12,929 bases of DNA from Scytonema sp. UIC 10036. Its GTDB lineage: Bacteria; Cyanobacteriota; Cyanobacteriia; Cyanobacteriales; Nostocaceae. The stretch covers positions 1-12,929 of the forward strand of contig NZ_WJFC01000289.1 of NCBI RefSeq assembly GCF_009725235.1. The letters are read 5' to 3'. How positions within the stretch are numbered: the first letter of the stretch is position 1; each line of letters opens with the position of its first letter. This document shows, piece by piece, positions 1,479 to 12,864 of this stretch. The position numbers were made by a program, and so were the translations under genes. Under the pieces are notes generated by a model. It was given only the letters and a program-made list of their open reading frames with translations, made no database searches and had not been told where the DNA came from.

Positions 1479-2906
1479 TTAAGCTAAATGCATAAACACC
1501 ATTTTTAATAAATCTGCACGGGTAAAAGGCTTTGTTAAATATCCGGAAGCTCCTACTAATCTGGCTCTGACTTTATCTACAATTCCCTTGCTTCCTGTCA
1601 CCATAATTATCGGAGTTCTCTTAAACATAGAGTTATTGCGGACGAGCCGACATAGCTCGTAACCATCCATTCCGTCCATATTTAAGTCCAATAAAATCAA
1701 GTCTGGTTTGTGTCTAATAATTGTCATCACTGCTTTCAGCGGATCGCTAATTGTAACTACAGAAAAACTTTCATCTTCCAAAAAACGACTAATTTCTCTC
1801 AGAATTGTAGGGCTATCATCTACAGAAACAACTTTATATATTTTTCTGGTAACTGTGGATGTTGTGGGAGTAGAGGGGATTTTTTCTGCTTCAGCGTCTG
1901 TTTTATCTAATGTCGTTAATTCTGGAACTGTTTGGTTCTTGTAAGAAGTAGGGACTCGCTCCTGACGATTGGCTAAGTTTTCTGTTTTGCTAGGAACTCC
2001 TGCTTTTTCTCCAGAAATATTACTACTGGGTAGGGCTGCTGTGTGAGAAGCTTTCTTTTTGGGTTCTGGTAAATAGATAGGAGTTTTTGAGACTTCAATA
2101 TAGGTTGTTGGTAATTTATCAAATGGTGGATCTGCTTCATGCAATAAAACCGTCCCATTTGCTACATAAGGATATAAATTTCTCGTCAGTACTAATTCAT
2201 CTTGATTCACAATCACTGCAAGATGACGCAAGCTAAAACCTTTCATCCAGTCCGTTAAACTGGGATCTAACCCTGATATGGTAGGAGCTATTTCGGTGGT
2301 TTTTATAACTAAGTACGGGCGCTGGTATGGTGAGGAAATATGCGGAGCTAAGGATTGCCAAATTTGTAATCTTTGTTGACAGCGTTCTACTATTTTTTCT
2401 GCATCAAGCTTGCAAATGACAGGAACTCGATAAAGAGAATTTGTCAATTGATAAGTTCCTTGTTGAATTGAAAGAAATGCTTCAAGAACTTCTTTGACTA
2501 ACTCTTGAATCAGTATCGCTGCTTGTGTAGAATGCAAGTAGCGTTCGCTTACTAACCAACATATAGCTTGATATTCAGGTGGCAAAGGAGGCGTTATGGT
2601 TTGTTCTTGGCGATCGCTATATTCTGTTGATTGAGCTTGTGCATCTGGTTCAAACATCAAACGCAATTGAACCCGAACTTCCCCCGTAATGCTGTTGATT
2701 TGATGGCTGAGGCGACGTAAATGACGTTCTAGGCGATCGAAGGGTTCGACAGAATGTGTGGCGTAAGTTATTCTTCCTTGTTCTAAGTATATTGACCAAG
2801 TCACTGAATTGCTGTGTACTTGCAAACACGTACTCTCCGAGGCACTGTATAGGTGCCTTAGCAAACTTGAAGGACGCAGTTTTGTGAAAGTGCCAAAATT
2901 ATTCAT
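1479..2906 (-). CDS. PatA/PixG-like response regulator with PATAN and receiver domains
   Basis: A 475-residue signalling protein without a DNA-binding domain. The N-terminal part (about residues 5-255) looks like a PATAN (DUF4388-type) module as in PatA of Anabaena and PixG/TaxP1 of Synechocystis, including an early stretch around TWSIYLEQGRITYATHS. A low-complexity, Ser/Thr/Pro/Lys-rich linker (about 280-352) follows. The C-terminal receiver (355-475) has the acidic pair D363-D364 in VSVDDS, phosphoacceptor D407 in LILLDLNMDG, T437 in VTGSKG and K459 in LTKPF, so it should be phosphorylatable. In known relatives this architecture acts in heterocyst patterning or phototaxis/pilus control through protein contacts. 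PixG-type genes normally head a pixGHIJ chemotaxis-like operon; here no CheY, CheW, MCP or CheA gene follows, which makes this a solitary PatA paralogue. The exact process it controls cannot be told from sequence. Confidence 0.85.
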   Translation of the reverse strand: MNNFGTFTKLRPSSLLRHLYSASESTCLQVHSNSVTWSIYLEQGRITYATHSVEPFDRLERHLRRLSHQINSITGEVRVQLRLMFEPDAQAQSTEYSDRQEQTITPPLPPEYQAICWLVSERYLHSTQAAILIQELVKEVLEAFLSIQQGTYQLTNSLYRVPVICKLDAEKIVERCQQRLQIWQSLAPHISSPYQRPYLVIKTTEIAPTISGLDPSLTDWMKGFSLRHLAVIVNQDELVLTRNLYPYVANGTVLLHEADPPFDKLPTTYIEVSKTPIYLPEPKKKASHTAALPSSNISGEKAGVPSKTENLANRQERVPTSYKNQTVPELTTLDKTDAEAEKIPSTPTTSTVTRKIYKVVSVDDSPTILREISRFLEDESFSVVTISDPLKAVMTIIRHKPDLILLDLNMDGMDGYELCRLVRNNSMFKRTPIIMVTGSKGIVDKVRARLVGASGYLTKPFTRADLLKMVFMHLA

Positions 2907-3364: not shown

Positions 3365-3484
3365 TTCACAATTTTGTAAGATACTTGGCAGAAGAAATTT
3401 CTTTAATCAATAGTAAACTATCCAAGATAAGCAAAAGCAATACATATAGTGCAATTGCCTGTTTAAACTATATACTTTGAGGAA

Positions 3485-3490
3485 AAGGAA
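3485..3490 (+). promoter_or_regulatory. Ribosome-binding site supporting a TTG start
   Basis: AAGGAA ends 9 bases before TTG at 3500, inside a purine-rich run beginning GAGGAA at 3479. This supports TTG at 3500 as the vWA start rather than the internal ATG at 3527, which has no such site. Confidence 0.55.
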
Positions 3491-3499
3491 ATTTGAGCT

Positions 3500-4201
3500 T
3501 TGGACTATAACATAACACAAGAAGTTATGCAGGATACATTAAAACTCGATGAAGTCGTTGAGTTCGCGGAGAACCCAGAGCCACGTTGTCCTTGTGTGCT
3601 GCTGTTAGATACGTCTGGTTCAATGCAAGGAACTGCCATTGACGCTTTGAATCAAGGCTTGCAAACTTTCAAGGAAGAATTAATCAAAAATTCCTTGGCA
3701 GCAAGAAGGGTAGAAGTAGCAATAGTTACCTTTGACAGCCAAATCAACGTTGTACAAGACTTTGTAACTGCCGATCAGTTCAATCCTCCGATACTGACAG
3801 CACAAGGGCTAACTACCATGGGTTCTGGTATTCACAAAGCTTTGGACATGATTCAAGAGCGCAAATCTCAATATCGTGCCAATGGCGTTGCTTACTATCG
3901 TCCTTGGGTCTTTATGATTACAGATGGTGAACCGCAAGGTGAATTTGAAGATGTGATCGACCAAGCGACGCGTCGTCTGCAAGCAGATGAAGCAAGTAAA
4001 CGAGTGGCTTTTTTCACGGTAGGTGTAGAAAACGCCAACATGAATCGTTTGGGCCAAATAGCTGTACGCAGTCCCCTAAAATTGACAGGGTTAAATTTTG
4101 TTGAGATGTTTGTTTGGCTCTCAGCGAGTATGTCAGCCGTATCTCATTCTAAAGTAGACGAACAAGTGGCGTTACCCCCAATAGGATGGGGTTCTGTTTG
4201 A
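3500..4201 (+). CDS. TerY/YegL-type von Willebrand factor A domain protein
   Basis: A 233-residue cytosolic protein that is almost entirely one vWA domain. The metal-ion-dependent adhesion site is complete: D37-T-S-G-S41 in LLLDTSGSM, T105/T106 in GLTTMGSG, and D142 in FMITDGEP. No signal peptide or membrane segment is seen. The pattern fits the TerY/YegL group (COG4245), whose members are thought to be divalent-metal-dependent protein-binding adaptors in stress-linked phospho-signalling. It is the first gene of a three-gene operon; its TGA stop shares its A with the ATG of the PP2C gene, pointing to translational coupling and fixed stoichiometry. The start is TTG, supported by AAGGAA nine bases upstream; ATG at 3527 would remove nine residues before the fold. 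The binding partner is inferred to be the neighbouring kinase or phosphatase, not shown. Confidence 0.88.
   Translation: MDYNITQEVMQDTLKLDEVVEFAENPEPRCPCVLLLDTSGSMQGTAIDALNQGLQTFKEELIKNSLAARRVEVAIVTFDSQINVVQDFVTADQFNPPILTAQGLTTMGSGIHKALDMIQERKSQYRANGVAYYRPWVFMITDGEPQGEFEDVIDQATRRLQADEASKRVAFFTVGVENANMNRLGQIAVRSPLKLTGLNFVEMFVWLSASMSAVSHSKVDEQVALPPIGWGSV
4183..4190 (+). promoter_or_regulatory. Purine-rich site before the coupled PP2C start
   Basis: GGATGGGG (4184-4190 core, inside the vWA coding end) lies about 10 bases before ATG at 4201. It supports starting the PP2C gene there and not at the ATG (4186) that falls inside this same purine run. Confidence 0.45.
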
Positions 4202-5022
4202 TGGAAATGCGGCTTACTCCAGGTGATAGTAGACAACAATTCATGAATATCTCGAAACAAGTACCCCACTGGCGGGTAGTGGCCGCGTCTGTGTGTGGTA
4301 CCAGCCACGTAAAAAATAAACAGCTCTGTCAGGATGCTCACCACTGGCAAATATTGCCGGACAGTATACTCGTTACAGCAGTCGCAGATGGTGCGGGTTC
4401 CGCAAGCATGGGGAAAGTTGGGGCAATGGTAGCAACAGAAACAGCAGTTGACAACATATCTCTCAAGGAGCTCACTCGACAAACCCTGACTGACGACGAA
4501 GCTGTCCGTTCCATTTTGTTAGACGCCATTATCACTGCAAGGAAAGCCGTGGAGGAGGAGGCGGCAGCCTGTGAAAAACAGCCATCAGACTTGGCAAGTA
4601 CCCTAATTATTACAGTGGCTGCCCCTGAAATTGTGGCGGTAGCACAGATAGGGGACGGAGTAGCTGTAGCAAAAGATACAGAAGATCGCCTGGTTGCACT
4701 GACCTTCCCAGATAGTGGCGAATATATCAATGAAACAGTTTTTTTAACTTCACCCGGAGCGTTAGATGCAGCACAATTAAGAGTCTGGCGTCAAGCAATA
4801 GTAAATGTGGGAGTCCTGACTGATGGACTACAAATGCTGGCCATGAATATGGCAGTAGGTGCTCCTCATAAACCGTTTTTCTCTCCCCTGTTTGAATTTG
4901 CAGCTAATGCAGACGACAAAACAGTGGCAAAAGAACAACTTGTGAGGTTTTTGCGATCGGATAGGATTACGCAACGTACTGATGATGACTTGACGCTAGT
5001 AATAGCTGCCTTAAGCCACTAA
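4201..5022 (+). CDS. PP2C-family serine/threonine protein phosphatase (YegK-like)
   Basis: A 273-residue single-domain metal-dependent phosphatase, likely cytosolic, that would remove phosphate from Ser/Thr of proteins in the same pathway. Motifs seen: GTSHVKNKQLCQDA (33-46, equivalent to the family R..NQD start), VADGAGSA (61-68) with metal ligand D63, SDLASTL (129-135), QIGDGVAV (149-156), LTDGLQ (206-211) with D208, and the terminal TDDDLTLVIA (260-269) with the last metal-binding Asp. This is the short PP2C_2 subtype that pairs with vWA and kinase genes. The frame extends to ATG 4186, but ATG 4201 sits in a TGATG overlap with the vWA stop and is preceded by a purine run. The kinase gene begins 59 bases downstream without an intervening terminator. 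Role as the off-switch for that kinase is inferred from gene order and from E. coli YegK-YegI. Confidence 0.87.
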   Translation: MEMRLTPGDSRQQFMNISKQVPHWRVVAASVCGTSHVKNKQLCQDAHHWQILPDSILVTAVADGAGSASMGKVGAMVATETAVDNISLKELTRQTLTDDEAVRSILLDAIITARKAVEEEAAACEKQPSDLASTLIITVAAPEIVAVAQIGDGVAVAKDTEDRLVALTFPDSGEYINETVFLTSPGALDAAQLRVWRQAIVNVGVLTDGLQMLAMNMAVGAPHKPFFSPLFEFAANADDKTVAKEQLVRFLRSDRITQRTDDDLTLVIAALSH

Positions 5023-5081
5023 TTGAGCAGTTATTATGACGGTCACAAATCGTATACATTAGGCATAAGAATCAATATATC

Positions 5082-7274
5082 ATGCAGGTACTACGTTATC
5101 TTCCCAATCAAAAACCCAGTCAGCTCAACCTCAGCGTTACTTTAGGGCAAGGTGGAGAAGCTTGTATTTATACGATACCAACAGATAGCGAGTTGGTGGC
5201 AAAAGTTTATCACAAGCCAGTTTCCGTACAAGGTCACAAACTAGAGGTGATGATTGCCAATCCGCCAGAAAACCCAACTGCCAGTTTGGGGCATATCTCT
5301 ATTGCTTGGCCTGTAGAGTTACTGCGCTCATCAGATGGAAAAAACAACGTCATTGGGTTTCTGATGCCCCGCATTCGGGGTATGCGTCCTATTATTGACT
5401 TCTACAACCCCAGAACTCGCCGCCAACATTGCCCTTTATTTAACTATCAATATCTTATCCGTACTGCTCGGAACTTAGCTGCAGCTTTTGCATCCTTACA
5501 CGCTTCAGGGTACTGTGTTGGAGATGTTAACGAGTCGAATATTCTAGTTGGCGATACAGCTTTGGTGTCCATAGTAGACACTGATTCGTTCCAGGTAAGA
5601 GACATAAAAAATCAAAGTGTTTACCGTTGTCCTGTAGGAAAACCGGAATTTACTCCACCAGAGCTTCAAAACAAAACTTTTGCTGAGTGCGATCGCGTTT
5701 TCGCTCACGATCTGTTTGGATTGGCAGTACTCATATTCCAACTTTTAATGGAAGGAACTCACCCATTCTCAGGAATTTTTCAAGGAATGGGCGAACCGCC
5801 ACCATATGAAGCCCGCATAGCCGCAGGGCATTTTACCTACAGTCAAAAGCGGCGGGTTCCTTACGTGACAACGCCTATCGCACCCCCCTGGGAAATTCTC
5901 CATCCCAGCTTGCAAGAACTCTTCCTGCGTTGTTTTGAGGATGGACATTCTAACCCGTTGCTTCGCCCCAGCGCTCAAACTTGGTTGCTCGCACTAGCTG
6001 AAGCGGAAAATTCCCTCTTGACTTGTACTGTAAACCCCCAACACCGTTACAGCAATCATCTAGAAAAATGCCCCTGGTGCGAACGTGCTTTGCGTTTGGG
6101 AGGACGCGATCCTTTCCCGTCTCATAGAGCAATAGCAAACAAAGAACACCTTAAACCGCAACCAAAATCAAAAAAACGACAAACTCAACCTCCTCGCGTA
6201 CCGCAACCAGTCGCGACGTTTAATCGCGTTAATTCTCGCACTCAGATGCCAGTCTTTAGTCAAAATATTCCTTACTACAGACCCCCCAAAAAACGAAGAT
6301 ACTATCCCGTCATTTTTTGCTTGCTAGGTTTTGGGTTGTTGGGATATTTAGACTTAGTCATTAAATTTACAAATCGCCCTTTTACAGGGCAAAGCGCTTC
6401 CTACACCCAGCCCAGTTTGGTTTCTATCACCCAGAACAAGGGCAAAGACTCTCAAACTTTTGCAGAATTTTACAAGCAGGGGCACGCTTCTTATAAAATA
6501 CGCGATTACGAAAAAGCAATTGAGAAGTTCTCTCAAGCTATTGAAAAAAACCCAAAACACGCTAAAGCTTACGTGAATCGTGGGAACGCTCACTACAATA
6601 TTAAGGAGTATGAATCTGCCCTTTCAGACTATAATCAAGCTTTGAGCATCAATCCTCAGGAAATAAAAGCTTACGTTAATCGTGGAAATTCTCGCTTTCT
6701 ACTTGCAGAATATAGCAGTGACCCCGATCGCGAGTACAACTTGGCAATCTCAGATTACAACTCAGCATTGCGTCTCAACCCCAATGAAGTAGAAGCATAC
6801 GTAAGAAGGGGTATAGTTCGTGCTCAAATAGCTAAGTACAGTGGCGATTCTCAACAAGATTACAACAGAGCAATTGCTGACTTTAATAAAGCACTCTCGT
6901 TAAGTTCAGATAGATCGGAACCCCTTTTCCAACGAGGTGTCGTTCGCTATCAAATTGCTCAATATAGCAGTGATTTTGAGAAAGAGTACAAACAAGCGAT
7001 CGAGGATTTTAACCAAGCATTGCGTATCAATCCCAAGCTTTCAAAAGTCTATTTAAAGCGAGGTATTGTTCGCTATGAACTTGCACAATATGGTGGCGGA
7101 TTCTCCAGCAAATACCACAAGCAAGCCGTTGAGGATTTACAAACAGCTGCCAAAATGGCTCTCGAACAAGAAGATATGGATAATTACCAACAAGCGCTTA
7201 GCAGCATTTGTGTTGTTGTCGAAAATAAATGTGACACTTTCTTGCAAACCTCAAGTGTTCAGGATAATAAGTAA
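5082..7274 (+). CDS. Atypical membrane-anchored Ser/Thr kinase with zinc-ribbon-like motif and TPR repeats
   Basis: A 730-residue protein, third gene of the vWA-PP2C-kinase operon. Residues about 15-310 form a divergent kinase fold: glycine loop LGQGGEACIY (21-30), VAK lysine K41, catalytic loop GDVNESNIL (147-155) with D148 and N153 but N150 where the usual Lys stands, DTD (166-168) in place of DFG, PEFTPPEL (188-195) as the APE region, and D210 in AHDLFGL. C315, H321, C330 and C333 (CPWC) suggest a small zinc-binding knuckle. A basic, Pro/Gln-rich linker leads to one hydrophobic segment (about 408-427), then six TPRs (about 460-697). The kinase is probably cytoplasmic and the TPRs outside the membrane. 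The catalytic motifs and membrane anchor recall E. coli YegI. Substrates are unknown; the TPRs likely recruit a partner. Start ATG has only a weak upstream purine run. Confidence 0.87.
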   Translation: MQVLRYLPNQKPSQLNLSVTLGQGGEACIYTIPTDSELVAKVYHKPVSVQGHKLEVMIANPPENPTASLGHISIAWPVELLRSSDGKNNVIGFLMPRIRGMRPIIDFYNPRTRRQHCPLFNYQYLIRTARNLAAAFASLHASGYCVGDVNESNILVGDTALVSIVDTDSFQVRDIKNQSVYRCPVGKPEFTPPELQNKTFAECDRVFAHDLFGLAVLIFQLLMEGTHPFSGIFQGMGEPPPYEARIAAGHFTYSQKRRVPYVTTPIAPPWEILHPSLQELFLRCFEDGHSNPLLRPSAQTWLLALAEAENSLLTCTVNPQHRYSNHLEKCPWCERALRLGGRDPFPSHRAIANKEHLKPQPKSKKRQTQPPRVPQPVATFNRVNSRTQMPVFSQNIPYYRPPKKRRYYPVIFCLLGFGLLGYLDLVIKFTNRPFTGQSASYTQPSLVSITQNKGKDSQTFAEFYKQGHASYKIRDYEKAIEKFSQAIEKNPKHAKAYVNRGNAHYNIKEYESALSDYNQALSINPQEIKAYVNRGNSRFLLAEYSSDPDREYNLAISDYNSALRLNPNEVEAYVRRGIVRAQIAKYSGDSQQDYNRAIADFNKALSLSSDRSEPLFQRGVVRYQIAQYSSDFEKEYKQAIEDFNQALRINPKLSKVYLKRGIVRYELAQYGGGFSSKYHKQAVEDLQTAAKMALEQEDMDNYQQALSSICVVVENKCDTFLQTSSVQDNK
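6663..7172 (+). repeat. Four lengthened 42-44-residue TPR units in the kinase
   Basis: Repeats 1 and 2 (residues 460-527) have the standard 34-residue TPR period. From residue 528 the period becomes 42 (528-569, 570-611, 612-653), then about 44 (654-697). The extra residues fall between the two helices and are alike: AEYSSDPDREY, AKYSGDSQQDY, AQYSSDFEKEY and the diverged AQYGGGFSSKY. This regular insert points to local duplication of one extended unit. Confidence 0.75.
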
Positions 7275-7328: not shown

Positions 7329-7354
7329 AGAATGCGAGGTAAATTTTTTATCCT
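7329..7354. repeat. 26-bp direct repeat, copy 1
   Basis: The bases 7329-7354, beginning AGAATGCGAGGTAAA and ending TTATCCT, recur exactly at 7400-7425. The copies start 71 bases apart and enclose the second hairpin. GGATAAA (7323-7329) can also pair with TTTATCC (7347-7353) at this copy. Confidence 0.75.
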
Positions 7355-7357
7355 TAT

Positions 7358-7379
7358 ACCCTTGATTTCTAAGGGTTTT
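7358..7379 (+). terminator. Second terminator-like hairpin
   Basis: ACCCTT (7358-7363) pairs with AAGGGT (7371-7376) around a 7-base loop, followed by TTT and C. It may back up the terminator at 7287-7312. Confidence 0.45.
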
Positions 7380-7399: not shown

Positions 7400-7425
7400 A
7401 GAATGCGAGGTAAATTTTTTATCCT
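7400..7425. repeat. 26-bp direct repeat, copy 2
   Basis: Exact copy of 7329-7354, 71 bases downstream of it, in the same orientation. Confidence 0.75.
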
Positions 7426-7525: not shown

Positions 7526-7555
7526 TTGAGTAAAATTATAGATAGATTATATACT
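7526..7555 (+). promoter_or_regulatory. Candidate promoter of rfbF
   Basis: TTGAGT (7526-7531) and TATACT (7550-7555) are 18 bases apart, close to housekeeping-sigma consensus, and lie about 80 bases before the rfbF start and after the terminators of the previous operon. TTTACA at 7517-7522 is an alternative -35 but lacks a well-spaced -10. Confidence 0.4.
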
Positions 7556-7636: not shown

Positions 7637-8410
7637 ATGAAAGCAGTAATTTTAGCTGGAGGACTTGGTACGCGTCTGAGTGAAGAAACAAGCGTCAGAC
7701 CAAAGCCAATGGTGGAGATTGGTGGTAAGCCCATATTATGGCACATCATGAAGGTTTACTCCGCCCACGGCATCAATGATTTTATCATTTGCTGTGGTTA
7801 CAAAGGTTATGTAATCAAAGAGTATTTTGCCAACTACTTCTTACACATGTCAGACGTGACGTTTGATATGCGGTTTAACCAGATGAATGTGCATGCTGGT
7901 AACGCAGAACCCTGGCGAGTTACTCTAGTAGACACGGGTGACAACACAATGACAGGTGGACGCTTGAGACGAGTGAAAGAACACATTGGTAGTGAAACTT
8001 TCTGCTTCACCTATGGTGACGGTGTCAGTGATGTCAACATTACAGAAGTCCTAAAATTTCATAAAGAGCAAAAGACTTTAGCAACAATGACAGCAGTCCA
8101 ACCACCAGGACGTTTCGGTGCAATTGTTTTGGGACAAGAACAAACCAAAATTACCAGTTTCCGAGAAAAGCCAGAAGGTGATGGAGCTTGGATTAATGGT
8201 GGTTTTTTTGTGCTTGAACCCGATGTCATTAATCTAATTGCTGATGATTCTACTGTTTGGGAACAAGTGCCACTAGAAAAATTAGCAGAAAAGGAACAGC
8301 TTTCTGCTTACAAACATCATGGTTTCTGGCAACCAATGGATACCTTGAGAGATAAAAATTATCTTGAGGATTTGTGGCAGAAAAATAAAGCTCCTTGGAA
8401 GATTTGGTAA
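7637..8410 (+). CDS. rfbF: Glucose-1-phosphate cytidylyltransferase
   Basis: Makes CDP-glucose and pyrophosphate from CTP and glucose-1-phosphate, the entry step to CDP-linked deoxysugars. The 257 residues match the full length of RfbF enzymes. The nucleotide-binding signature GGLGTRL (8-14) is followed by R21-P-K23-[10 protein letters not shown] (125-132) carries the metal-binding Asp residues; GRFGAIV and FREKPEG in the middle, INGGFFV, and the C-terminal [11 protein letters not shown] are typical for the CDP-specific branch as opposed to dTDP-glucose RmlA. The protein is cytosolic. ATG at 7637 starts directly at the first beta-strand, with AAGAG about ten bases upstream. It heads the sugar locus, but the usual partner rfbG (CDP-glucose 4,6-dehydratase) is not the next gene. 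Confidence 0.95.
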
Positions 8411-8445
8411 GAAAATTGTGAATTATGGGTGCTCGAAGAATGACA

Positions 8446-8508
8446 ATTCATAATTCATCATTCATAATTCATCATTCATAATTCATCATTCATAATTCAT
8501 CATTCATC
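8446..8508. repeat. Heptanucleotide tandem array (STRR), nine units
   Basis: Nine uninterrupted units of ATTCATM. The last base alternates A,C,A,C,A,C,A,C and then C, so the array is really a 14-mer repeat with a terminal extra heptamer. Short tandemly repeated heptamers are a known feature of filamentous heterocystous cyanobacteria. It fills most of the spacer between rfbF and lhgO and ends 22 bases before the lhgO start, so it is likely transcribed. Confidence 0.9.
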
Positions 8509-8530
8509 TAGTTTTCTGTGGCAGTTATAT

Positions 8531-9751
8531 ATGTATGATTTTGCAATTATAGGTGGGGGAATCGTTGGTCTTTCCACCGGGATGGCTTTGGGCAAACGCT
8601 ACCCTAACGCACGTATTCTTGTTTTAGAAAAAGAAAGCCAATGGGCATTTCACCAAACTGGCAATAATAGCGGTGTGATTCACTCTGGTATTTATTATAA
8701 ACCGGGTAGCTTTAAAGCAAAATTTTGCCGTGAAGGTTGCCGTACAATGGTAGAATTTTGCCAAGAGCATGGAATTGATTACGAAATTTGCGGGAAGGTC
8801 ATTGTAGCAACAGATTTTGAAGAACTATCTCGGTTGGAAAATCTCTACCAAAGAGGTTTAGAAAACGGGATAGATGTCAAAAGAATTACTGCCGAAGAAG
8901 TCAAAGAATACGAACCTCACGTCACAAGCGTTGGGGGAATATTTGTTTCTTCCACTGGAATTGTGAGTTACAAGCAGGTATGTTTCAAATACGCTGAAAT
9001 TATCAGACAGCAAGGAGGAGACCTGCGTCTTAATACAAAGGTGAAACGCATCGTTAAGAGTGGCAACCATCAAGTATTGGAAACGAATACGGGTAGCTTT
9101 GCAACTCGCTTTGTTATCAATTGTGCTGGGTTACATAGCGATCGCGTAGCGAACATGGGCAAAGTCAATCCACAAGCAAAAATTGTACCTTTCCGGGGAG
9201 AGTATTACGAACTTATACCAGAAAAACGTTCTTTAGTCAAAGGTCTGATATACCCAGTTCCCAATCCAGATTTTCCTTTCTTGGGAGTGCATTTTACCCG
9301 CATGATTGATGGCACAGTCCATGCAGGACCTAATGCAGTTCTCAGCCTCAAACGCGAAGGATATCACAAAACGGACTTTGACTTGCGAGATTTTGCCGAA
9401 GTTATGACTTATCCCGCTTTCTGGAAACTGGCTGCCAAGTACGCAGATGAAGGCATGAAAGAAATCATCCGTTCCTTTAGCAAAGCAGTGTTCACAAAAA
9501 GTTTGCAAAAACTGATTCCTGAAGTCAGATCGGAGGATTTAGTACCAACTCATGCAGGAGTTCGCGCTCAAGCACTAATGAACGACGGCAAGCTAGTGGA
9601 TGATTTTTTGATTGTTCAAGGTGAAAACTCCGTCCATGTTTGCAATGCGCCTTCTCCGGCGGCAACATCTTCCATTGAAATTGGCAAAGCTATTGTTGCA
9701 CAAATTCCCGAACAATCCCATTTACAACCTGCAGTCAGTTCGATCAATTAA
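8531..9751 (+). CDS. lhgO: L-2-hydroxyglutarate oxidase-like FAD-dependent oxidoreductase
   Basis: A 406-residue flavoprotein of the DAO/LhgO family. In E. coli, LhgO oxidises L-2-hydroxyglutarate to 2-oxoglutarate, passing electrons to the quinone pool. Seen here: dinucleotide-binding IIGGGIVGLSTG (6-17), ribose-binding E33 in ILVLEKE, the family motif HQTGNNSGVIHSGIYY (41-56), VPFRGEYYEL and HAGPNAVLSLKREGY in the substrate half, and the C-terminal CNAPSPAATSSIEIG flavin loop. Length is normal and no break is seen. No strong ribosome-binding site precedes ATG 8531. It lies among nucleotide-sugar genes, 120 bases after rfbF, which is odd for a central-metabolism enzyme. It may oxidise a different 2-hydroxy acid or a sugar-linked hydroxyl, but this is speculation; family membership is firm, the substrate is not. 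Confidence 0.88.
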   Translation: MYDFAIIGGGIVGLSTGMALGKRYPNARILVLEKESQWAFHQTGNNSGVIHSGIYYKPGSFKAKFCREGCRTMVEFCQEHGIDYEICGKVIVATDFEELSRLENLYQRGLENGIDVKRITAEEVKEYEPHVTSVGGIFVSSTGIVSYKQVCFKYAEIIRQQGGDLRLNTKVKRIVKSGNHQVLETNTGSFATRFVINCAGLHSDRVANMGKVNPQAKIVPFRGEYYELIPEKRSLVKGLIYPVPNPDFPFLGVHFTRMIDGTVHAGPNAVLSLKREGYHKTDFDLRDFAEVMTYPAFWKLAAKYADEGMKEIIRSFSKAVFTKSLQKLIPEVRSEDLVPTHAGVRAQALMNDGKLVDDFLIVQGENSVHVCNAPSPAATSSIEIGKAIVAQIPEQSHLQPAVSSIN

Positions 9752-9943
9752 TTAAATTTGCCTGTGTTTTTTCCTGTGAAGTAGGAATACGAGTAACCAC
9801 GGGCAATTGGTTGAAAAAGTTTATGAAAGCAACATCACTGGCTACTGCAAAACTTTAAAAATAATATGTTACTGTGCGTACATACGGTGCAAAAGTAGGC
9901 AGTAGTCAATACACCACAAGTTATTACGAACACATCAACTCAT

Positions 9944-9948
9944 AGGAA
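9944..9948 (+). promoter_or_regulatory. Ribosome-binding site fixing the SDR start
   Basis: AGGAA lies 9 bases before ATG at 9958. The upstream in-frame TTG at 9949 abuts this site and so cannot use it, which makes ATG 9958 the start. Confidence 0.6.
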
Positions 9949-9957
9949 TTGAAAACA

Positions 9958-10986
9958 ATGAAAGTTTTAGTCACTGGTACCGAAGGTTATCTTGGTTGCT
10001 TGTTACCACCCCTACTTGTAGAAAAAGGACATGAAGTTATCGGTGTAGACACTGGCTTTTATAAAGTAGGCTGGCTGTACAATGGTACTCAAGTAACAGC
10101 TAAAACCCTCAACAAAGATATTCGCAATATCTCTATTGAAGACCTACAAGGTGTGGATGCGATCGTTCACATGGCAGAACTATCCAACGATCCCACCGGA
10201 CAATTAGCACCGCATATTACCTATGAAATTAATCATAAAGGTTCCGTTCGTCTTGCCAAGTTGGCAAAAGAAGTGGGTGTGCGTCGCTTCGTGTACATGT
10301 CTTCCTGTAGCGTTTATGGCGTAGCGACTGAGGGTGATGTTACAGAAGAATCGCCTGTAAATCCTCAAACAGCTTATGCAGAGTGTAAGACTTTAGTAGA
10401 AAGGGATGTGCAGCCTTTAGCTGACGATAATTTCTCTCCCACCTTTATGCGAAACGCCACGGCTTTCGGTGCATCTCCCAGAATGCGCTTCGATATTGTT
10501 TTGAACAACCTATCAGGTTTGGCATGGACTACCAAAGAAATCAAAATGACGAGTGATGGTACACCTTGGCGTCCACTCGTCCATGCCCTAGATATTTGCA
10601 AAGCCATTGTTTGCGCCCTAGAAGCGCCCCGTGACATCGTACACAATCAAATCTTTAACGTAGGCGACACCGCCAACAACTATCGCGTTAAAGAAATTGC
10701 TGAAATTGTTGCTGAAGTTTTCCCCGGATGCCAACTCAGTTTTGGGACTCAAGGTGCAGATAACCGCAGCTACCGAGTCTCTTTTGAGAAAATTAACACC
10801 ATCCTACCAGGCTTTAAATGCGATTGGGATGCCAAGCGTGGCGCACAACAGTTGTATGACGTGTTCTCTCAAATTGATATGAGTGAAGAGACTTTCACTT
10901 CTAGAGGATTCACTCGCTTGAAGCAGCTCGAATATCTCATTCGTACCCAGCAAATTGATAAAGATTTCTTCTGGGCTAAGAAGTAA
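9958..10986 (+). CDS. Extended SDR nucleotide-sugar epimerase/dehydratase
   Basis: A 342-residue, cytosolic NAD(P)-dependent enzyme of the extended short-chain dehydrogenase family. The Rossmann motif is TGTEGYLG (6-13); D31 after the second strand favours NAD(H). The catalytic set is MSSCSVYG (114-121) with S116 or nearby Ser, Y140 and K144 in YAECK. NATAFGASPRMR and GDTANNYRV belong to the substrate half. It probably epimerises, dehydrates or reduces a nucleotide-bound hexose. It is not RfbG: that family has a TGHTGFKGSWL-type start, absent here. Its context after rfbF suggests a CDP-sugar substrate. A 206-base spacer separates it from lhgO, so it may have its own promoter, and a strong terminator follows at 11014. 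The exact reaction cannot be assigned. Confidence 0.87.
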   Translation: MKVLVTGTEGYLGCLLPPLLVEKGHEVIGVDTGFYKVGWLYNGTQVTAKTLNKDIRNISIEDLQGVDAIVHMAELSNDPTGQLAPHITYEINHKGSVRLAKLAKEVGVRRFVYMSSCSVYGVATEGDVTEESPVNPQTAYAECKTLVERDVQPLADDNFSPTFMRNATAFGASPRMRFDIVLNNLSGLAWTTKEIKMTSDGTPWRPLVHALDICKAIVCALEAPRDIVHNQIFNVGDTANNYRVKEIAEIVAEVFPGCQLSFGTQGADNRSYRVSFEKINTILPGFKCDWDAKRGAQQLYDVFSQIDMSEETFTSRGFTRLKQLEYLIRTQQIDKDFFWAKK

Positions 10987-11013
10987 TCGTCGGTACGGAA
11001 ACATCCACGCGAT

Positions 11014-11052
11014 AAGAAGTTCCAAATCCGTCTATTGGATTTGGGCTTCTTT
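11014..11052 (+). terminator. Strong hairpin terminator after the SDR gene
   Basis: AAGAAG (11014-11019) pairs with CTTCTT (11046-11051) and CCAAATCC (11022-11029) with GGATTTGG (11037-11044); a T.G wobble and one bulged base lie between, and the loop has seven bases. The short T-run is weak (CTTCTTTAATT), but the stem of about 14 pairs just 28 bases after the stop codon is convincing. Confidence 0.7.
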
Positions 11053-11087
11053 AATTCAAAATTCCACTTATAATAAATTTTATTTAC

Positions 11088-11158
11088 GTAGGTTGGGTTG
11101 AGGAACGAAACCCAACATAAATTTTCAGCTTGTGTTTGGTTTCGTTCCTCACCCCAAC
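11088..11158 (+). repeat. Dispersed GTTGGGTTGAGG-type repeat, copy 2
   Basis: The arms 11092-11112 and 11138-11158 are inverted copies with 20 of 21 positions complementary (T11098 is the exception), around a 25-base loop. The left arm also folds on itself: GTTGGGTT (11092-11099) with AACCCAAC (11109-11116). Positions 11088-11106 are the exact inverse of 506-524. It lies in the spacer before the glycosyltransferase. Confidence 0.75.
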
Positions 11159-11234
11159 AACCAGATATTATAAGTGTTTGACTGAACCTGATATTACCTT
11201 AGAAGAGAGCGCTCGAATCAGAGATGAAACAAAC

Positions 11235-12164
11235 ATGAACAAGTTACTAACTATTGCGATTCCAACGTACAACCGTGCGAATTTACTAGACAAACAGCTA
11301 ACCTGGCTATCAAAATCTATTAAAGGTTTTGAATCAGAATGTGAAATTATTGTCTCAGATAACTGCTCAACAGACAATACCCAAGAAGTCATTAAAAAAT
11401 GGCAACAATATTTTCACAACGTGACATTCCAAGCCAATAGAAATAGTGAAAATCTTGGAGTCATGAAAAATATTGCTTACTGTATTAATGCCGCAACAAG
11501 CAAGTACGTATGGACAATTGGAGATGACGATCCCATCCAGGAAAGAACGCTGGGTTATGTAGTGAAAAATCTTCAAGAACATCCAGATTTATCATTATTC
11601 ATTCTTAATTTCTCCTGCCGTTACGAACCAACAGGCGAGCTGATTTATGAAAAATGCTTTGATGTTAAGAATGAAGAAATTTCTGAAAATGGGAAAGCAG
11701 TCTTTGAACGTTGCTTGCAGGAAAATCACTCTGGTGTGGGATTTATGACTGCCCAGATATATCGCACCCAAGACGCCCAGACTGCTGTAAGGAATTGGTC
11801 ATCTGGGTTAAGTAATATGGAAGCACAAGTTTACTGGACTGCTTTTTGTGCATCTCGTGGTAGTGCAAAGGTTACCAATGAAACCTATGTAGAAAGTGCT
11901 TTTGGTTCAAGTTATTGGATGCGCGAACCCAAAATATTGTTCAAAATGCAATATATTGATTTGCCCAGACTTTACGTAAAGCTCATCGAGATTGGTTACT
12001 CAAGAAAATTTTGCCGAAAGTTAGTTTTAAAGCATTTCTTGAAAAACAATTGGAGAGTTTTCTTTGGAGCTTTAAGAAGATGGCCCGTACTTGCAGTGAA
12101 GACGATCGTACCCTACCTGGCTTTAGTCGGTGAGTCAGCATGGCAATTCGTTTTGCCACTCTAG
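11235..12164 (+). CDS. Family 2 glycosyltransferase
   Basis: A 309-residue GT-A fold enzyme that would transfer a sugar from a nucleotide donor to a growing polysaccharide or lipid-linked oligosaccharide. The N-terminal domain shows TIAIPTYNRANLL (6-18), VSDNCSTDNT (40-49), NLGVMKNI (73-80) and the metal-binding DxD equivalent in IGDDDP (95-100, D97-D99). The C-terminal third is basic with an amphipathic to hydrophobic tail (VLAVKTIVPYLALVG) that may associate with the membrane. The open frame continues to TTG 11130, but those codons run into the repeat at 11088-11158 and lack family character, so I start at ATG 11235, which directly precedes the conserved first strand. Only a weak purine run (GAGATGA) precedes it. 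Donor and acceptor cannot be predicted. Confidence 0.85.
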   Translation: MNKLLTIAIPTYNRANLLDKQLTWLSKSIKGFESECEIIVSDNCSTDNTQEVIKKWQQYFHNVTFQANRNSENLGVMKNIAYCINAATSKYVWTIGDDDPIQERTLGYVVKNLQEHPDLSLFILNFSCRYEPTGELIYEKCFDVKNEEISENGKAVFERCLQENHSGVGFMTAQIYRTQDAQTAVRNWSSGLSNMEAQVYWTAFCASRGSAKVTNETYVESAFGSSYWMREPKILFKMQYIDLPRLYVKLIEIGYSRKFCRKLVLKHFLKNNWRVFFGALRRWPVLAVKTIVPYLALVGESAWQFVLPL

Positions 12165-12312
12165 TAGATATCGAAGTGTCATTTGAGATTTTAAGCGTAA
12201 TGTACATCACCAATTGTGTAGTCTATGTATTACGAGCTTTCACGTAGAGAGCGGCTTGGTTTCAGAAATTGTTTAATCTACTGGTGTAGTTAAAGTACAA
12301 AGTGAGGTATCC

Positions 12313-12864
12313 ATGATTTTTACGAAAACAGAACTCCAAGATGCGTACATTATCGATTTAGAGCAAAAGCCCGACCACAGAGGTTTTTTTGCTCGGACTT
12401 TCTGTGCTAAAGAATTTGAAGCACACGGTTTAAAGCCAACAGTCGCCCAATGCAACCTATCCTTTAACTACAACAAAGGAACGTTGCGGGGAATGCACTA
12501 TCAAGTTGCCCCAGCAACAGAAACAAAATTGATTCGCTGCATAAGTGGCGCTATCTATGACGTAATTATAGATATGCGTCCTGAATCGCCAACCTACCTT
12601 CAACATATTGGAGTGGAACTCTCCGCCGAAAACCGCCGTGCCCTGTACGTGCCAGAAATGTTTGCCCATGGCTATCAATCACTGACAGATGGGGCTGAGG
12701 TTGTTTATCAAGTAGGTGAGTTTTACACTCCGGGCTACGAGCGTGGTTTGCGCTATGACGATCCATTTTTCAATATTCAATGGCCTATGGAAGTAACTGT
12801 CATTTCTGAGAAGGATAAAAATTGGCCTTTAATGTCAATGATGACTGTTGGCGGAACTGTTTAG
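12313..12864 (+). CDS. rfbC: RmlC-type nucleotide-sugar 3,5-epimerase
   Basis: A cupin-fold epimerase of 183 residues, the normal length, which inverts C3 and/or C5 of a 4-keto-6-deoxyhexose nucleotide such as dTDP-4-dehydro-6-deoxyglucose. Catalytic residues known in RmlC are all present: H62 in TLRGMHYQ, K72, Y132 and Y138 in VVYQVGEFY, and D168 in SEKDKNWP; PDHRGFFARTF (20-30) and PEMFAHGYQSL (114-124) are family signatures. ATG 12313 follows GAGGT (12304-12308), a good ribosome-binding site. No rmlA, rmlB or rmlD accompanies it here; with rfbF in the locus the substrate may be CDP-linked, which would be a variation on the family theme. TAG is followed immediately by a heptamer array. Confidence 0.92.
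   Translation: MIFTKTELQDAYIIDLEQKPDHRGFFARTFCAKEFEAHGLKPTVAQCNLSFNYNKGTLRGMHYQVAPATETKLIRCISGAIYDVIIDMRPESPTYLQHIGVELSAENRRALYVPEMFAHGYQSLTDGAEVVYQVGEFYTPGYERGLRYDDPFFNIQWPMEVTVISEKDKNWPLMSMMTVGGTV

Follow-up and report, generated by a model that had tools for sequence, protein, structure and literature searches.

A YegLKI-type vWA-PP2C-kinase triad beside a predicted heterocyst envelope polysaccharide island in Scytonema sp. UIC 10036

Genes and protein domains of the triad

The DNA analyzed here (the window) is a stretch of 12,929 nucleotides, positions 1 to 12,929 of contig NZ_WJFC01000289.1 from the cyanobacterium Scytonema sp. UIC 10036. On its forward strand lie three co-directional open reading frames (ORFs), which encode a vWA protein (3500-4201), a PP2C phosphatase (4201-5022) and a kinase with a TPR domain (5082-7274). 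The initial annotation, made from the sequence alone, had described a three-gene vWA-PP2C-kinase set at 3500..7274, and both the ORFs and the Pfam domains agree with it. What is new here is the genomic context of this triad, namely its place beside genes that we assign, based on domain matches and gene order, to the heterocyst envelope polysaccharide (HEP) island.

The three products are homologs of the Escherichia coli proteins YegL (54% identity, 214 aa), PphC, also named YegK (37%, 252 aa), and YegI (37% over 325 residues, with an alignment that stops exactly at a CPWC motif). Pfam matches are clear for the vWA protein (VWA, 1.6e-13), the phosphatase (PP2C_2, 9.4e-54) and the C-terminal part of the kinase (TPR_11, 1.3e-30). 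A kinase fold is found in the third protein, although its Pkinase match is weak (1.5e-5) and lies under the Pfam gathering cut-off. Sequence searches against solved structures returned no match for the kinase domain or PP2C, and one weak match for the vWA protein. We searched 60 relatives, 36 of which belong to the family nearest to the window (hereafter the family); all 36 possess all three genes. Throughout 36 sequences, the active-site motifs are invariant or near-invariant: the positions DTSGS, T and D of the vWA metal site do not vary, and the acidic residues of PP2C as well as the lysine and the two catalytic aspartates of the kinase are intact, as is also seen in a set of 49 kinases. 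With all three homologs standing in the order vWA, PP2C, kinase, the triad is almost certainly a member of the YegL-PphC-YegI family, and the likeness in gene order and domain types that had been proposed at the outset is backed by sequence, order and motifs.

The kinase domain covers residues ~14-311 (5121..6014) and is followed by a zinc-ribbon motif, C315-H321-C330PWC333 (6024..6080), which is invariant in the 49 kinases. A membrane helix is predicted for residues 408-429 (6303..6368), and a hydrophobic segment is present in 36 out of 36 sequences; in a structure model, this segment is helical with low confidence (pLDDT ~46-57). The TPR domain follows at residues 460-713 (6459..7220; Pfam TPR) and is modeled with pLDDT values mostly between 76 and 96. 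Because lysine and arginine are richer before than after the hydrophobic segment in 31 of the 36 sequences, the TPR domain is probably located outside the cytoplasm. A different architecture is seen in two loci of family f2 (L205, L206), where several hydrophobic segments in the kinase replace the single segment and TPR domain, and where genes including those for products of 230 and 588 aa separate PP2C from the kinase.

Genomic neighborhood and its conservation

Downstream of the triad and on the same strand, the window contains a block of genes whose order corresponds to positions in Anabaena sp. PCC 7120. The first is a glucose-1-phosphate cytidylyltransferase gene (rfbF, 7637..8410; TIGR02623, 474 bits, cut-off 300) at the position of alr2825. 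It is followed by a gene for an FAD oxidase of the L-2-hydroxyglutarate oxidase type at the alr2826 position (8531..9751; NF008726, 618 bits; 30 of 35 loci), an NAD-dependent epimerase/dehydratase at the alr2827 position (9949..10986; Pfam Epimerase; 29 of 35), a family 2 glycosyltransferase (11130..12164; Pfam; 23 of 35) and a dTDP-4-dehydrorhamnose 3,5-epimerase (rfbC/rmlC, 12313..12864; Pfam, 1.1e-64; 28 of 35) at the alr2830 position. The window ends shortly after; in the relatives G002 and G005, genes for HepC and HepA are found past the rfbF-to-rfbC block, downstream and on the same strand. HepC scores 339 and 309 bits there, over an NCBIfam cut-off of 140, and HepA 1018 and 1040 bits, over one of 725. 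The envelope polysaccharide locus proposed initially is hence borne out, and these matches refine it to the heterocyst HEP island.

On the other side, the divergent neighbor of the triad encodes a PatA-like protein with a DUF4388 domain and a receiver (1479..2906, reverse strand; Pfam). An OmpR/PhoB-type response regulator (634-1353) adjoins the block in just three cases, the window and the two relatives closest to it. Both of the orphan receivers mentioned in the initial annotation therefore exist, one being this narrowly distributed regulator and the other the PatA-like protein.

For 35 family members we compared loci of 20 kb, ignoring ORFs below 140 aa; one genome (G009), split over contigs, was omitted. 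The triad is contiguous, in the same order and on one strand in 35 out of 35 loci, and with such a fixed order it is not a chance grouping. The PatA-like gene adjoins it divergently in 33 loci (exceptions L111 and L124). On the kinase side, rfbF is the next gene in 30 loci and lies within three genes in 33, so that the triad is kept beside the island in 33 of 35 loci. By comparison, no gene cluster upstream of the PatA-like gene occurs in more than 13 loci. A survey of the triad's neighbors across cyanobacteria had been suggested as a check, and a lack of conservation of the three-gene order as a refutation; the order is kept in every family locus, so that the reading is not refuted there. Outside the family, no vWA homolog lies within the retrieved stretch in 7 out of 15 loci. 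The tight triad is thus universal in the family loci examined, but not beyond the family. Neighboring proteins co-diverge with r between 0.42 and 0.79, values that lack a control and are not used as evidence.

Phyletic distribution and phylogeny

Within the order, HepC exceeds its cut-off in 85 of 291 genomes, and a relative of the kinase (E 0.001 or better) occurs in 171 of 291. Both are present in all 29 family genomes compared, and in 24 of these they lie on the same strand within 20 kb. The exceptions are G250 (within 13 kb, opposite strands), G021 (~48 kb apart) and G028, G035 and G290 (different contigs). Beyond the family, HepC exceeds its cut-off in 56 genomes, of which 21 also possess a kinase with 54% identity or more, and the two genes are within 20 kb in none of the 21: six have them far apart on the same contig and fifteen, many of them drafts, on different contigs. 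In a wider search, the kinase was found in 216 out of 217 family genomes, and in 206 out of 206 of high quality. Named carriers include Scytonema, Brasilonema, Calothrix, Nostoc and Dolichospermum, all of which are heterocyst formers.

The kinase tree comprises 48 sequences and includes 20 of the 35 family loci. Family kinases form one clade (100/100), and its sister group consists of three kinases of family f18 (support for this fork 99/95). The positions of YegI and of the Nitrospirae kinase are unsure because of long branches. According to this tree and the restriction of the linkage to the family, the attachment to the HEP genes is a derived feature of the family.

Some genomes of the family and the order also contain a second, distinct vWA-PP2C-kinase triad type (L132-L146). 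Its vWA protein is ~50-55% identical to that of the window, its kinases have varied C-termini, and they form a separate clade (100/99). More distant relatives of the vWA protein (31-41% identity) occur in three unannotated human-gut records of a phage collection (MT836238.1, MT839721.1, MT835511.1).

Start codons and upstream signals

The overlap TGATG, with TGA at 4199-4201 and ATG at 4201-4203, is present in the window, and coupling through it had been put forward among the arguments for the match to the known triad. This argument is not supported, as only 3 of 36 loci, those of the window and the two relatives closest to it, have a start codon in frame that overlaps the stop of the vWA gene. 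Because 32 of 36 loci retain an ATG at the position equal to window 4243, PP2C more likely starts at that codon. For the vWA gene, the start may be either TTG 3500 or ATG 3527. Frame-breaking indels of 1 nt lie between these two positions in L114 and L172, and ATA replaces the inner ATG in L105 and L215; the start codon used may differ between species.

A conserved element spans this region on the forward strand (3469..3529). It begins with TATATACT (3469-3476), continues with a purine-rich stretch and ends with CATAAC (3511-3516) and GTTATG (3524-3529), spaced as CATAAC-N7-GTTATG. In the window, the stretch from TATATACT to ATG 3527 is strongly conserved within the family, and an imperfect palindrome spans that ATG. 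Compared with plain letter shuffles (20 rounds), TATATACT is strongly enriched within 200 nt before the vWA gene (53 of 67 family loci versus 0.9) and also occurs before rfbF (15 of 63 versus 1.5); the element is absent from the ten non-family triads examined. It may represent a promoter, an operator or a leader. An RNA hairpin formed by CATAAC-N7-GTTATG was considered and rejected, because pairing is broken in several relatives, e.g. L115, L122, L124 and L158; across the window, Rfam gave no match at gathering scores. The motif GTAN8TAC, which we take to be of the NtcA type, is no more frequent before the vWA gene (4 of 67) than in shuffles (4.0). TCCGGA, presumably DIF1-like, was counted in 7 of 67 loci before the vWA gene (1.3 in shuffles) and in 7 of 64 before the PatA-like gene (0.6), from which we claim no promoter.

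Pattern scans place a terminator-like hairpin (7358..7376, forward strand) in the gap between kinase and rfbF, and a promoter-like site before rfbF (7526-7555, forward strand), such promoter-like sites being no commoner than in shuffles. In view of the terminator-like site, the triad and the rfbF block are probably neighboring, similarly regulated units and not one operon. The same gap contains a direct repeat of ~25 bases, noticed by eye (7330-7354 and 7401-7425).

Functional interpretation

Published expression data for Anabaena sp. PCC 7120 concern the genes alr2822-alr2824, which precede its HEP island, defined as alr2825-alr2841 (PMC4390870). In the available part of that report, alr2822, alr2823 and alr2824 change by log2 -1.48, -1.58 and -2.24 in a sigC mutant, falling together with the island. 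A cse mutant is described with alr2822-alr2841, there termed the HEP island, down 2 to 3.5-fold (PMC7065334), and by 12 h after nitrogen step-down the region alr2816-all2838 is listed as upregulated (PMC3141674). Furthermore, a FurC box was predicted for alr2822, named 'hep island protein', and the electrophoretic mobility shift assay was negative according to the excerpt consulted (PMC10406281). A survey of cyanobacterial serine/threonine kinases contains no 'alr28' gene in its main text (PMC2176072), for which reason the kinase seems to have escaped that survey. Among the literature matches listed, none joins YegI or PphC with heterocysts, subscription journals being mostly outside the coverage.

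Taking linkage, distribution and this co-regulation together, we consider it reasonably probable that the triad is a phospho-switch of the YegLKI type that has been inherited vertically and serves in forming the heterocyst envelope. The initial suggestion of a control over envelope or stress responses is thereby narrowed, on its envelope side, to the heterocyst envelope. These three lines of evidence are not proof, as linkage and co-regulation do not equal function, and several observations weigh against such a role. The link to the HEP genes is broken in two family loci (L109 and L123), where rfbF is not within three genes of the kinase. In the draft genome G455 (3.2 Mb, 88% complete), HepA, HepC over its cut-off and rfbF are present, yet kinase and vWA protein are undetected; in its sister G456 (L223) the kinase is present and the vWA protein undetected, and in neither genome is rfbF preceded by the kinase. 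The terminator-like site separates the triad from rfbF. The equivalence to alr2822-alr2824, through which the expression data apply, is one that we infer by gene order only, and hetC and hetP were not found upstream in the loci examined. The presence of these two genes had been considered as proof of that equivalence and was dropped, neither gene being seen. Finally, kinase relatives are common outside the family, and in three loci of family f18 (L200-L202) the PatA-like gene stands divergent from the triad with HEP genes absent nearby. In G455 we also noticed that the FAD-oxidase gene of the HEP locus (L222) reads as two ORFs.

The kinase relatives outside the family and the f18 loci imply that the switch arose before its link to the HEP genes, and the four-gene unit of PatA-like gene and triad may predate this link too. 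They also favor a different explanation, in which the phospho-switch would serve envelope or stress responses in general, predate heterocysts and have no dedicated HEP role, its place representing a frozen neighborhood; the occurrence of kinase relatives in more than half of the genomes of the order, the separate promoter-like signals and the terminator-like site would fit this as well. We regard this explanation as rather unlikely, because the neighborhood is retained in nearly all family loci while genes upstream of the PatA-like gene are not, and because co-regulation with the HEP island is described in the published data available. Much more remote is an anti-phage defense module of the TerY-P kind. 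Modules resembling TerY-P with an OB-fold kinase have been reported as stand-alone defense (PMC11090510, in the part available), and a PADLOC scan yielded weak kinase matches to kinase-containing defense models (best 8.5e-6). These matches are generic and leave a defense identity unsupported: vWA and PP2C have no PADLOC match at E 0.1 in a library whose TerY-P content is unconfirmed, and Pfam predicts a TPR domain and no OB-fold part in the kinase. Defense modules are usually patchy in distribution, against which stand a kinase in virtually every family genome, its single clade and the fixed neighborhood.

A Ter-type system acting against metal or tellurite stress is just as improbable. TerY-P has been hypothesized to be a metal sensor (PMC11090510, same part), and the metal-site motif of the vWA protein and the zinc ribbon are conserved; the sequences are too distant, however, with 27, 32 (over 180 aa) and 23% identity to a plasmid TerY3-PP2C-kinase set versus 54, 37 and 37% to YegLKI. 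Ter families are absent from the ten window proteins scanned with Pfam, in agreement with the earlier remark that no Ter genes are nearby. Where the initial annotation had named TerY-P and YegL-YegK-YegI side by side, the YegL side stands and the TerY branch falls away: judged by identity, the window triad belongs with YegL and not with the tellurite-linked TerY branch. Defense and Ter roles are both disfavored.

For the preferred role in heterocyst-envelope formation, the following mechanism can be proposed. The TPR domain of the membrane kinase, outside the cytoplasm, would bind an envelope component or a partner, and this binding would gate the inner kinase domain in phosphorylating itself and its targets. 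Candidate targets are proteins of HEP synthesis or export, or the PatA-like receiver protein. PP2C would reset the kinase and its targets, and the vWA protein could dock kinase and phosphatase via its metal site. The genes, their intact motifs, order, distribution and linkage are observed directly; the signal, the topology and the substrates, as well as the roles of the vWA protein and of the triad in HEP formation, are inferred. In its most specific form, this would be a dedicated receptor-type kinase-phosphatase-vWA checkpoint that, with its outer TPR domain as sensor of the growing heterocyst envelope, gates the synthesis or export of HEP post-translationally, a proposal that we offer tentatively, as possible but less than probable. 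If it were true, it would be the first physiological role for YegLKI triads. A HEP role would add post-translational control to heterocyst-envelope formation, and the near-universal HEP link in one family points to a specific phenotype, in the HEP layer and in aerobic nitrogen fixation, that is easy to score in a tractable model.

Comparison with known systems

YegLKI-type triads are found in E. coli, on a Mesorhizobium plasmid, on a Nitrospirae contig and in cyanobacteria. In E. coli K-12, YegL, PphC and YegI are homologous to the window proteins and encoded in the same order; there, an antisense gene, yegJ, sits between pphC and yegI, and no HEP genes are near. YegI shares the C..H..CPWC motif after the kinase domain, but beyond CPWC its C-terminal part differs, whereas the window kinase has the TPR domain in this place. 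YegI is described as membrane-bound and autophosphorylating, and PphC dephosphorylates it; in the available text of the same study, no condition promoting the expression of yegI and pphC was found (PMC13232886). The TerY3-PP2C-kinase triad of IncHI2 plasmids agrees with that of the window in its three domain types and their order, is distant in all three proteins (see above) and adjoins terW, terX and terY genes. The vWA-PP2C-kinase order is likewise shared by the Mesorhizobium triad (L216; vWA 56.5%, kinase 38%) and the Nitrospirae triad (L180; kinase 39%), both without HEP genes in the stretches examined. A counterpart in genomic context is that of Anabaena sp. PCC 7120, in which alr2822-alr2824, published as hypothetical proteins, precede alr2825-alr2830 as the triad precedes the HEP genes of the window; the order of the latter genes (glucose-1-phosphate cytidylyltransferase, hypothetical, epimerase/dehydratase, two unknown, rfbC) fits that of window positions 7637-12864.

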